Positions 1 to 3,977 of a DNA stretch of 64,000 nt are shown here, one piece after another (position 1 is the stretch's first letter; every line of letters begins with the position of its first letter). The notes beneath the pieces were generated by a model, which ran no database searches, was not told the origin of the DNA, and saw only the letters and a program-made list of their open reading frames with translations. The DNA lies in contig JAFMCM010000005.1 in assembly GCA_017857755.1 (NCBI GenBank), forward strand, positions 1-64,000, read 5' to 3'. Position numbers and translations under genes: made by a program. Source of the stretch: Methylophilaceae bacterium (lineage in GTDB: Bacteria > Pseudomonadota > Gammaproteobacteria > Burkholderiales > Methylophilaceae).

Positions 1-198
1 ATTAATCTGCATATGAATCACTGCCCGTTTTGTCATGCGGGTGTTGCCAATGTCGTGATTCCAAGCTGCCATCTTGCTTTTGCTTTATTTTTGGCACAGC
101 AAGAAAGTGTACAATCGTTTGACCGCGAGATTGTATTCATTCCCAGCATCATTCTATCAGCGCATCTCACGCGTGGCCCCCCTGTAATCACTCTTTAA
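1..198 (+). CDS. C-terminal part of a DUF2946-family protein (5' end outside window)
   Basis: The reading frame is open from the first base of the window to a TAA at 196-198, so this is the 3' end of a gene that starts upstream; an internal ATG at 13 is unlikely to be the real start. The visible part carries a CPFC pair near its beginning and ends in an RGPP motif followed by four residues. DUF2946 proteins typically combine a Cys-containing centre with an ARGPP-like C-terminus, and they commonly sit beside TonB-dependent copper receptors (family knowledge). The next gene is such a receptor, which supports the call. The molecular function is unknown; a role in copper handling is inferred from context. 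Confidence is moderate because only about 65 residues are visible. Confidence 0.6.
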   Translation: MNLHMNHCPFCHAGVANVVIPSCHLAFALFLAQQESVQSFDREIVFIPSIILSAHLTRGPPVITL

Positions 199-330
199 GT
201 TTTAAATGCCTCGCAAGCATAGCGCTTCATGTAAGTGCATGTTATTTGTTTCATTTAATCGCCTGTTGGTTGTATTTGACTGAAATAAATCATGTGAACG
301 CCTATGACCTGCTTGTAATTGAGTTAGATA

Positions 331-2553
331 ATGATGGGGATTAACGTTGTGAGATTGAATAAAATACAAGCTTTATTATGGGTTGAGATTGCCTTAATTT
401 GTAGCTCATGGGGGCCGAATGTCGCTTATGCAGACCATTTGCATTTGGATGTGATTGATGTGGTGTCGGATACTACGCCTGAACTCAGGCAAGTGAAAGC
501 GAATGAAACAAGTGATTCCGCTAAACTATTTAAAGATGAAGCGGGGATGAGCTTTTATCGTGCTGGCGGTGTTTCTAGTTTGCCAGCTATACATGGTTTA
601 GCTGACGATAGAGTGCGCGTGCAAGTGGATGGCATGAATTTGATTTCCAGTTGTGCCAACCATATGAACCCTCCACTATCCTATATATCTCCATCCGCTG
701 TAGAGCAATTGACCGTATTTAAGGGCTTGTCCCCTGTTAGTCTAGGTGGCGACAGTATTGCTGGTACGATTTTAGTTAACTCGGCAACGCCAGAATTTGC
801 GGCGGCAGGTGAAGGTCTATTGACCCATGCTTCATTGAACACGTCCTATAAAAGTAATAATGATGAACGTGGTGTTAATGTTTCAGCAAGTGTGGCGAAT
901 GAAGAAGCCTATGTGCGCTATATCGGGTCATCAGTTGAAGCCAATAATTACCGTGCCGGTGGTAATTTTAAACCTGCAGGTTCTGCCGCAGCAGGCAGAG
1001 ACTTTTTAGATGCGGATGAAGTAGGCTCCAGCGCTTTCCGAGCGATTAACCATGCATTAGCCTTTGGCGCCAAACGGGACAATCACTTGTTTGAGGTTAA
1101 ATTAGGTTTGCAAAATATGCCCCAACAAGGCTTTCCTAATCAACGGATGGATATGACGGGAAACCAAGCCCAGCAATATAATTTTCAATATAAAGGCAGT
1201 TATGATTGGGGTCAATTAGAGGCGCAGGTTTATCATGAGCGTGTGCGACACAGCATGCAGTTTGGTGAAGATAAGCAGTTTGTTTACGGCAATGCACCTG
1301 GTATGCCGATGGATACCTTGGGTAGAACCACAGGCTTAAAGGTTAAAGCCAGTATGGAGATTTCCCAACGTGATTTTTTACGGATTGGTGCAGAGTATCA
1401 GCGCTACCGTTTGGATGATTACTGGCGCGCATCGGGGACTGGCATCATGATGTCTCCGAATACGTTCCTGAATATCAACAATGGCCAACGTGATCGATAT
1501 GACGTGTTTGCTGAAATCGACTCTCAGTGGACTCAGCAATGGTTTACCCAAGCAGGGTTGCGCAGTAGTCACGTCAAGATGGACGCAGGTTCTGTGCAAG
1601 GGTATAACAACACTACAACTGGCATGGCGCCTTATGGTGTTGCTGCTAACGCGTTCAACGCGGCGGATAGAAATGAGACTGACCACAATGTTGATATCAC
1701 TTTGTTGGCACGGTTTACCCCAAACAACTCGGAAAGCTATGAGGCTGGTTATTCGATGAAGACACGTTCTCCTAACGTATATGAACGCTTTGCATGGTCA
1801 AATAGCAATGGGATGGTCATGAACATGAATAATTGGTTTGGTGATGGCAATGGGTATGTTGGTAATCTCAACTTGAAGCCAGAAACTGCACATACGGTCA
1901 GCATGACAGCAAAGTGGCATGCTACCGAAGATAAGCATTGGCTACTTACAACCACGCCATATTTCACTTATGTCAATGACTTCATTGATGCTACTAGCTG
2001 TGCCGCTGTTGGTAAAACTTGCTCCTCTAGAAGCGATGGATTCTCTAACCTGAGTTTGTCTAATCAGTCTGCAAAACTCTATGGTGTTGATTTAAGCGCT
2101 AAAAAAGAGCTAAAAAAAGGTGGTGCGTTTGGTGGATTAAGTGCCAGTGCTTTAATTAGCTATGTTAGAGGTGAGAACACTACAACCAATGACGACTTGT
2201 ACAACATTATGCCACTCAATGCCAAGTTGGGCTTGAATCATCATTTGGGCGCTTGGAAAAACCAATTAGAATTAGAAATGGTAGCGGCAAAAAATCGTGT
2301 GCAAGCGATTCGTCATGAGGTTGAAACAGGCGGCTATACGCTACTGAATTTCTACACCAGCTATGAATGGAAGCAGGCGCGGTTTGATTTGGGCTTTGAA
2401 AATATTTTTGATAGAAAATATGCCGACCCACTTGGTGGCGCCTATCTAGGACAAGGTAAAACAATGTCTACAGATCAAACGGCGCCGCAACAAGGCGTGC
2501 AAGTGCCAGGTATTGGCCGCTCAGTGAATGTGGGACTTACTTTGTTTTATTAG
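331..2553 (+). CDS. TonB-dependent copper receptor, OprC/NosA type
   Basis: A 740-residue outer-membrane receptor expected to take up copper using TonB/ExbBD energy. Residues 1-35 form a signal peptide with likely cleavage after AYA, leaving a mature end beginning DHLHLD. The plug domain spans about 60-155 (RVRVQVDGMNL, then SAVEQLTVFKG) and the 22-stranded barrel fills the rest, ending in aromatic Y740 as porins do. A plug CxxxM motif (C108, M112, in the context CANHMNPPLSYI) and an HSM motif (H307, M309) correspond to the CxxxM-HxM copper site described for Pseudomonas OprC. It lies downstream of a DUF2946 gene and upstream of an Asp-box protein, a context seen with copper receptors. Two ATGs (331 and 334) are possible; a weak GAG lies 7 bases before the first. 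Confidence 0.88.
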   Translation: MMGINVVRLNKIQALLWVEIALICSSWGPNVAYADHLHLDVIDVVSDTTPELRQVKANETSDSAKLFKDEAGMSFYRAGGVSSLPAIHGLADDRVRVQVDGMNLISSCANHMNPPLSYISPSAVEQLTVFKGLSPVSLGGDSIAGTILVNSATPEFAAAGEGLLTHASLNTSYKSNNDERGVNVSASVANEEAYVRYIGSSVEANNYRAGGNFKPAGSAAAGRDFLDADEVGSSAFRAINHALAFGAKRDNHLFEVKLGLQNMPQQGFPNQRMDMTGNQAQQYNFQYKGSYDWGQLEAQVYHERVRHSMQFGEDKQFVYGNAPGMPMDTLGRTTGLKVKASMEISQRDFLRIGAEYQRYRLDDYWRASGTGIMMSPNTFLNINNGQRDRYDVFAEIDSQWTQQWFTQAGLRSSHVKMDAGSVQGYNNTTTGMAPYGVAANAFNAADRNETDHNVDITLLARFTPNNSESYEAGYSMKTRSPNVYERFAWSNSNGMVMNMNNWFGDGNGYVGNLNLKPETAHTVSMTAKWHATEDKHWLLTTTPYFTYVNDFIDATSCAAVGKTCSSRSDGFSNLSLSNQSAKLYGVDLSAKKELKKGGAFGGLSASALISYVRGENTTTNDDLYNIMPLNAKLGLNHHLGAWKNQLELEMVAAKNRVQAIRHEVETGGYTLLNFYTSYEWKQARFDLGFENIFDRKYADPLGGAYLGQGKTMSTDQTAPQQGVQVPGIGRSVNVGLTLFY

Positions 2554-2762
2554 TTTTTTTAAATCATTCGGCGTCTATTTTTGAGTGTGAGTTAGACGAA
2601 GTTGTTCAATAGACAACAGTTAGCTACGCGGTTTAGAAAGGAGTCTGGCGCATCAAAGTCAGTTTCGATTATGGACAGTGTTGGGCTAACTGCTGAGATG
2701 TTAGAGTGAGCAAGTGTGCACATAGTTTGAGCATCTTTAGGCTTTACAAATGGAAGTAGACA

Positions 2763-3977
2763 ATGGAGTTAGGTTATACGATGAAAAATAGCATATTAAG
2801 CATAATGATAGTCGTAATCACTTTGCTAGTTGGCAAAGGATTTGCGCACGAAGGTCATATCAAAAACGATGCATCCAACCTAGCAGTTAGCCTTGTCTTT
2901 GATCAACAAGGGCAGTTGTGGCGTGCTCATGTGCTTGATGGATTTGTTTTTGTTGATCAAAGTAGCGATCGAGGCAAAACTTTCTCCAAGCATGTGAAGG
3001 TCAATCAGCGCCCACAAAAAATTGCAGCAAAAGGAGAGGAGCGCCCTAAAATCGCCATAGCACCTAATGGGGATGTTTACTTGACATGGACACAAGGACT
3101 AAGTAAGCCTTCTAGTGGCTACATATGGTTTTCACGCTCAAGTGATGGTGGTGAGCATTTTGATGAGCCAATGATTGTGCATCAAGATCGTGCGGAAATT
3201 ACCCATCGGTTTGACGCGCTTAATGTTGCACCTAATGGTGTGATTACAGTGGCATGGGTGGATGAACGGGATCTAGCATTAGCCGAAATAACAAAAGACA
3301 GATCTGCTGGTGCAGCAATTTATTACGCGCGTTCTTTTGATAGAGGTGCGACCTTTGAAAAAGAACAAAAGTTAGCGGATAGTAGTTGCGAGTGTTGCCG
3401 AATTGCCATGACGAATAAGCCTGATGGGACTGCTGTTGCAATGTGGCGGCATGTATTTGAAGGAGGTGAGCGCGATCATATGATCGCTGAAGTACCAAAA
3501 GCGGGTATGGTACCGCAACTAAATCGCGCAACATTTGGGCACTGGAAAATAAATGGTTGTCCGCATCATGGCGGTGCGCTTGCCATCGGTGAGAATGCTT
3601 CAGGCTGGTGGGGTTACCACTTAGCCTATTTTGACGGAAAAGATAAAAAACCGGGGCTGTATTATAGCCGTATGGATGGCAATGCTTGGGTGACATCCCC
3701 CGCTAAGAAATTTGGTAATCATACTCAGCAAGCTAGATATCCCACTGTGTTGAGCATGGGCGATAAAGTTTGGCTGGCTTGGTTGGAAACAGGAGCAGAT
3801 AATATGAATAAGGTGATGGGCTTGACTTCATTAGATGGAGGCAAGACTTGGTCCGATGCTGGTATTTTGTTGAATGCTGGTCTCCAGACGGATGATCCTC
3901 AGTTGCTACAGTTTAAAGAGACGGTTTTTTTGGTTGTTAACACTAAAGAAGGGCTTAAAGTGCGCGCGCTGCAGTAA
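2763..3977 (+). CDS. Secreted Asp-box (BNR-like) beta-propeller protein of a copper-receptor locus
   Basis: A 404-residue exported protein of sialidase-like beta-propeller fold. Four Asp-box repeats are visible: SDRGKTF (from residue 68), SSDGGEHF (126), SFDRGATF (191) and SLDGGKTW (356). A hydrophobic signal peptide ends at about residue 28, and the mature end begins HEGH. Cysteine/histidine clusters CECC (C209, C211, C212) and CPHH (C266, H268, H269) are plausible metal-binding sites (inference). No FRIP motif is visible near the N-terminus, so true sialidase activity is unlikely despite the generic annotation such proteins receive. Start 2763 has a GGAAG six bases upstream; an in-frame ATG at 2781 would give a more canonical signal peptide (MKNSILSI). 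The 209-base gap to the receptor gene has no clear terminator, so co-transcription is possible. Confidence 0.75.
   Translation: MELGYTMKNSILSIMIVVITLLVGKGFAHEGHIKNDASNLAVSLVFDQQGQLWRAHVLDGFVFVDQSSDRGKTFSKHVKVNQRPQKIAAKGEERPKIAIAPNGDVYLTWTQGLSKPSSGYIWFSRSSDGGEHFDEPMIVHQDRAEITHRFDALNVAPNGVITVAWVDERDLALAEITKDRSAGAAIYYARSFDRGATFEKEQKLADSSCECCRIAMTNKPDGTAVAMWRHVFEGGERDHMIAEVPKAGMVPQLNRATFGHWKINGCPHHGGALAIGENASGWWGYHLAYFDGKDKKPGLYYSRMDGNAWVTSPAKKFGNHTQQARYPTVLSMGDKVWLAWLETGADNMNKVMGLTSLDGGKTWSDAGILLNAGLQTDDPQLLQFKETVFLVVNTKEGLKVRALQ

Follow-up and report, generated by a model that had tools for sequence, protein, structure and literature searches.

A putative copper-acquisition locus in a Methylophilaceae bacterium combines a CruR-like leader, an OprC-like receptor and a secreted Asp-box propeller

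We examined one end of a contig from a Methylophilaceae bacterium (GenBank assembly GCA_017857755.1; contig JAFMCM010000005.1, here C16; genome of 1.6 Mb in 67 contigs), whose first 64,000 bases form the window analysed here. At the edge of this contig lies a candidate copper-uptake gene set of three genes, all on the plus strand: the end of a gene for a DUF2946 protein that resembles the leader peptide CruR, a gene for a TonB-dependent receptor that resembles OprC, and a gene for a secreted protein with the Asp boxes of a beta-propeller. A preliminary description had placed these three genes together on one strand as a copper-acquisition locus, and each was confirmed in its place. The features are listed below.

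1 to 198, plus strand: C-terminal part of the DUF2946/CruR-like leader gene (65 codons), with CPFC at 22-33, RGPP at 172-183 and the stop codon at 196-198; the 5′ part is on contig C23.
135 to 212, plus strand: stretch rich in C and poor in G around the end of cruR (C exceeds G by 20.5 percentage points over 78 nt), where Rho might load.
199 to 330, plus strand: gap of 132 bp between cruR and the receptor gene.
331 to 2553, plus strand: gene for the OprC-like TonB-dependent receptor (740 aa), with CxxxM (C108/M112) at 652-666 and HxM (H307/M309) at 1249-1257.
2554 to 2762, plus strand: gap of 209 bp between the receptor and propeller genes, a putative deletion junction at which a relative of the same genus (L033) has a second DUF2946 gene, a small helix-turn-helix gene and an other-clade receptor gene.
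2763 to 3977, plus strand: gene for the secreted Asp-box propeller, seven blades predicted (404 aa), with CECC at 3387-3398 and CPHH at 3558-3569; position 2781 offers a further start codon.

The 5′ part of the DUF2946 gene opens contig C23, where it lies on the minus strand (locus L031). A stretch of 6 bases and the reading frame are common to both contig ends, and the joined product is an uninterrupted protein of 143 aa that agrees with the whole gene of a genome from the same genus (L133), including the stretch over the join. The gene divergent from DUF2946 on C23 also adjoins DUF2946 in four other loci (L033, L034, L038 and L133). Because the joined frame is intact, the whole gene agrees with it and the divergent neighbour recurs, C23 and C16 are very probably neighbours, the DUF2946 gene having been split by assembly alone. 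A palindromic ATTAAT, inside cruR, stands at both contig ends (positions 1-6 of the window and 1-6 of L031). Against PF11162 the joined protein scored 47.6 bits (gathering score 23.7) and the window fragment alone 16.9, so that the DUF2946 protein end recognized earlier at the start of the window is borne out.

The closest studied relative of this leader is CruR of Bordetella pertussis, described as a DUF2946 copper-responsive upstream open reading frame with 45 residues between CxxC and RAPP and a gap of 162 bp to the receptor gene, ahead of which copper brings about Rho-dependent termination (PMC9426467). Our joined protein has CPFC, then 46 residues, RGPP and VITL, a spacing close to that of CruR. 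Among the RAPP-like motifs compared in a further study, RGPP gave the strongest arrest, and arrest by CruR itself was demonstrated in vitro (PMC12992588). DUF2946 had been called a family of no known function and pictured as one protein of a copper relay. The first statement is mistaken, since a regulatory nascent peptide of the CruR type is known (PMC9426467), and the relay role was rejected because this closest studied homologue works as a nascent regulatory peptide.

Among 50 DUF2946 sequences (including L034, whose contig is shared with L053), 35 end in RAPP or RGPP, which is a slight undercount because L084 and L103, labelled otherwise, also end with RGPP. The C-rich stretch is only suggestive of a Rho-loading region, because a peak of its kind occurs in 3.8% of the 330-nt stretches in the window. 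Promoter-like sites (5, against 8.1 in shuffles) were not above expectation and terminator-like sites (9, against 4.3) were moderately above it, neither count being decisive; an Rfam search of the window gave no matches.

In Methylophilaceae, DUF2946 genes standing before a receptor that is not OprC-like often end in QAPP (L033, L034/L053, L036, L038, L043, L054) or LAPP (L059) rather than RAPP. Expression in B. pertussis is lost when the R and A of RAPP are replaced (PMC9426467), and the QAPP and LAPP leaders may either have lost arrest or represent new arrest variants. A second, weaker DUF2946-like gene, with CILC and an LRPP near its end, was seen at 6145-6480 of L032 (contig C42 of G000), preceding genes for a protein predicted to be secreted and for a small one that bears a CAFC motif of the heavy-metal type.

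The receptor, one of six TonB receptors in the genome, consists of plug and barrel domains, and its nearest PDB entry by sequence is OprC (E 8e-23). The Cys and Met of its CxxxM align (phmmer) with those of the OprC plug, where a CxxxM copper site has been described (PMC8610252), and an HSM (H307/M309) stands where, in a comparison within its own clade, several members carry HxM. Its best NCBIfam model is TIGR01778, but the score of 158.3 bits is a third of the cut-off of 472.45, and for this reason we call the receptor OprC-like rather than OprC. The earlier assignment to the OprC/NosA (TIGR01778) type therefore holds as a resemblance and fails as a membership.

The third gene had been described as encoding a secreted Asp-box protein with a CECC motif, and this description was upheld: the 404-residue product begins with a hydrophobic, signal-like stretch and contains four exact Asp boxes, where composition shuffles average 0.017 and reach at most 1 (2,000 shuffles). 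A structure model built from 51 aligned sequences (mean predicted local distance difference test score 87, predicted template modelling score 0.85) combines these boxes with predicted four-stranded blades, as expected of an Asp-box propeller, and by our reading of the predicted strands there are seven such blades, the last incomplete. Alignment A1 omits L100, L102 and L105 (partial or broken), four short relatives (L049-L052) were dropped from one propeller alignment, and frames overlong at the 5′ end in some loci were trimmed to the aligned part. The four dropped relatives are short secreted proteins of about 174-198 aa that match the later blades only and are without CECC and CPHH; those of L049, L050 and L052 are encoded divergently from DUF2946 and receptor genes and look like reduced propeller relatives.

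Eight residues are invariant in all 51 sequences (C209, C211, C212, C266, H148, H230, H268 and H286), and H140, H239 and H269 nearly so. The four cysteines among them are the only ones in the window protein. In the model, H140, H148, CECC, H230/H239 and CPHH fall in loops or adjoining strand ends on one face of blades 3 to 5, as judged by strand order, and H286 lies inside a predicted strand. A universal N-terminal His serving the mature protein as copper ligand was rejected, since His occupies the column of the window's H29 in 37 of 54 rows.

The closest structural matches of the model were PLL-type lectins (PLL4, Z 29.8, 2.8 Å over 305 residues, about 12% identity) and sialidases. These folds, together with plasmid relatives annotated 'sialidase family protein', are what would favour a carbohydrate enzyme or lectin whose location here is incidental. 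However, the [FY]RIP motif that marks sialidases was found in 0 of the 51 sequences, the protein has no NCBIfam match, and receptors and copper genes recur around the family, so that we regard a carbohydrate function as very improbable.

We then profiled the neighbourhoods of propeller genes in 53 loci from genome contigs, mostly betaproteobacterial by title; some named loci and relatives may come from the same genomes (for example L037/L062), and the counts are not fully independent. A TonB receptor gene lies directly upstream in 37 of the 48 loci with at least 1 kb of upstream sequence, and the next gene downstream encodes a small, secreted thioredoxin/AhpC-TSA-type protein in 30 of the 51 with at least 600 bp downstream. 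CxxC was present in 48 of 50 such downstream sequences, one scanned sequence giving a weak TlpA score; an SCO-like reading of the small protein was rejected, CxxxC occurring once in the 50. The window locus is without this thioredoxin gene. Copper genes near the propeller include YcnI (DUF1775) with CopC-CopD in L124 and PCuAC in L126, and NF033672 ('copper uptake system-associated') is near it in L036. In an evenly drawn phylum sample, a propeller relative (E ≤1e-10) was detected in 9 of 299 genomes, the window's included; nine loci other than the window's had an adjacent receptor in 8 cases, the thioredoxin in 8 and DUF2946 in 2. The module is thus found in Betaproteobacteria and sparsely in other classes, usually in the order receptor then propeller, often with DUF2946 upstream and the thioredoxin downstream.

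The preliminary description had expected the propeller to keep company with OprC-type receptors, and this was only partly borne out: the propeller usually adjoins some TonB receptor, but an OprC-type neighbour is rare. In a tree of 82 receptors (those with fewer than 480 aligned residues, and L034, being omitted), 53 adjoin a propeller gene, and of these only the window's falls in the OprC-like clade (9 members, support 1.0). A general pairing of OprC with the Asp-box protein is therefore not supported, and OprC plus propeller as an ancestral pair was rejected on the same count of 1 in 53. TonB receptor 9rvq matched two of the propeller-partner receptors.

Two genomes of the same genus suggest how the window's pair arose. 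In G005 the order is DUF2946, an OprC-like receptor (71% identical to ours), a second DUF2946, a small helix-turn-helix gene, a receptor of another clade and the propeller; in G004 it is DUF2946, an OprC-like receptor and a second DUF2946 up to the contig end, with the propeller starting another contig. Several other loci likewise include an OprC-like receptor in this cluster. Because of these gene orders, and because the other-clade receptor is absent from the window genome (its best match there, at 27% identity and 21.9 bits, is a different receptor), the simplest reading is that a deletion joined the OprC-like receptor to the propeller gene and that the pairing in the window is secondary. 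Such a deletion could also have left the propeller outside the operon, expressed alone or not at all, with cruR governing the receptor only. The 209-bp gap and the loss of the usual receptor partner from the genome speak for this outcome; the propeller frame is nevertheless unbroken, with 58-64% identity to four copies from the same genus, and the gap contains none of the listed promoter-like sites, and we consider it quite unlikely.

The variety of receptor partners bears on what the propeller handles. The receptors might import copper in chelated or chalkophore-bound form, or else a different metal complex, for example haem, or molecules like pyrroloquinoline quinone, and the propeller might bind or strip that chelate on its arrival in the periplasm. 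The receptors that adjoin a propeller belong to several unrelated clades and score toward haem, siderophore or PqqU models; the related CrtA imports chelated copper (PMC12914433); an Ideonella plasmid relative of our receptor, within the OprC-like clade, lies after genes for DUF2946, MbnP and MbnM; and the propeller fold is common to sugar-binding lectins. Yet the window receptor has the CxxxM and HxM motifs of ionic copper, and four invariant cysteines fit a metal better than an organic ligand. We hold this possibility to be unlikely, though it deserves some weight.

Distant relatives of the propeller also occur on plasmids, in 42 records, those listed being mostly named 'sialidase family protein'. 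Ten of the 42 were examined, picked for different organisms; as plasmids are rich in metal islands, this sample is biased and uncontrolled. All 10 kept the CxCC and CP motifs, and 9 had a copper-named gene within 5 kb, the exception being Sulfitobacter mediterraneus. Some of these relatives belong to islands of copper resistance that also encode multicopper oxidases, CopC, CusA or P-type ATPases, as would suit a periplasmic copper sponge serving tolerance rather than uptake. The betaproteobacterial propeller is instead tied to uptake receptors, and some of its loci have the leader type that shuts the operon off in copper excess in B. pertussis. Considering too that the islands are plasmid-borne, on replicons enriched for metal resistance, and that the sample covers only 10 of the 42 records, we find a tolerance role distinctly improbable.

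Together, a leader matching a copper-sensing upstream open reading frame, a receptor with OprC-like motifs and relatives that adjoin copper genes support copper acquisition, as first proposed for the locus. On these sequence features, we lean towards reading it as a copper-starvation operon in which the propeller would act as a periplasmic receiver of Cu(I), and a copper relay through the propeller is plausible. By analogy with CruR, when copper is scarce the ribosome would stall at the RGPP of nascent DUF2946 and the downstream genes would be transcribed; copper bound by CPFC would relieve the stall and let Rho end transcription. The OprC-like receptor, judging from its motifs, would carry copper over the outer membrane via a putative CxxxM-HxM site, and the exported propeller would take up incoming periplasmic copper on the face bearing the four invariant cysteines and most of the conserved histidines. 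It might then hand copper to SCO1 and the heme-copper oxidases, for which the genome has one and three genes, respectively. In other lineages, the neighbouring secreted CxxC thioredoxin could keep the propeller cysteines reduced.

Several observations weigh against this operon model. Of the 43 propeller loci whose upstream sequence reaches 5 kb or more, only 19 have a same-strand DUF2946 ahead of the propeller. A full-length propeller occurs in 17 of 61 close genomes; DUF2946 is present in 14 of these (within 10 kb in 9) and in 20 of the remaining 44, a weak link (Fisher p 0.009 overall and 0.07 inside the family; kinship ignored). Methylophilaceae leaders before the other receptor, often ending in QAPP, may arrest only weakly. 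The receptor scores well short of the TIGR01778 cut-off, the Cys/His cluster of the propeller is deduced from strand order in a predicted model, and the propeller gene, with 209 bp in front of it, may be transcribed separately.

Compared with known systems, the locus is most like cruR-bfrG(crtA)-bp2921 of B. pertussis (PMC9426467, PMC12914433), which shares the DUF2946 leader with CxxC and a RAPP-type motif, the long gap and a copper-linked TonB receptor. It differs in having an OprC-like receptor and an Asp-box propeller in place of the PepSY_TM protein as the third gene. PepSY_TM is encoded beside crtA in more than 75% of crtA loci (PMC12914433) and had 0 matches in the window genome; because the genome is without this usual neighbour of the Bordetella-type operon, the propeller may fill its slot by other means. 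With OprC of Pseudomonas aeruginosa and NosA, the receptor shares plug and barrel and a CxxxM aligned in the plug, and its HxM may correspond to the one in their barrel, its TIGR01778 score setting it apart; the operon partner of oprC (PA3790) is PA3789, a FoxB-like inner-membrane protein (PMC8610252), where ours is the propeller. PLL-type lectins and GH33 sialidases have the predicted propeller fold with Asp boxes in common with our family, which differs in its low identity to them, its invariant CxCC and CPH and its lack of [FY]RIP. CutF of Rhodobacter capsulatus is likewise an exported protein that senses copper while nascent and ends in a proline-rich stretch, but its motif is CxxxC, and copper switches its downstream gene on, not off (PMC9973294).

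The CruR-receptor type of operon is already published, while the propeller-thioredoxin module seems undescribed. No publication linking copper-receptor operons to an Asp-box, BNR or sialidase-like protein turned up among titles and abstract openings of the open-licence literature; propeller, sialidase and BNR are unmentioned in the main text of the CruR paper (PMC9426467), as are propeller and sialidase in that of the CrtA paper (PMC12914433). We tentatively propose, at somewhat less than even confidence, that the CxCC/CPHH propeller represents a new class of periplasmic copper receiver, with its own secreted thioredoxin, that has been combined with many unrelated TonB receptors. The path of copper after import by TonB receptors is poorly known, and for OprC only a possible reductase has been put forward for its onward movement (PMC8610252); the propeller offers a concrete, purifiable candidate. 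If our reading is true, the propeller would be the post-import step missing from the accounts of OprC and CrtA, and it would found a broader family linked to copper, whose widespread 'sialidase family' label would be corrected.

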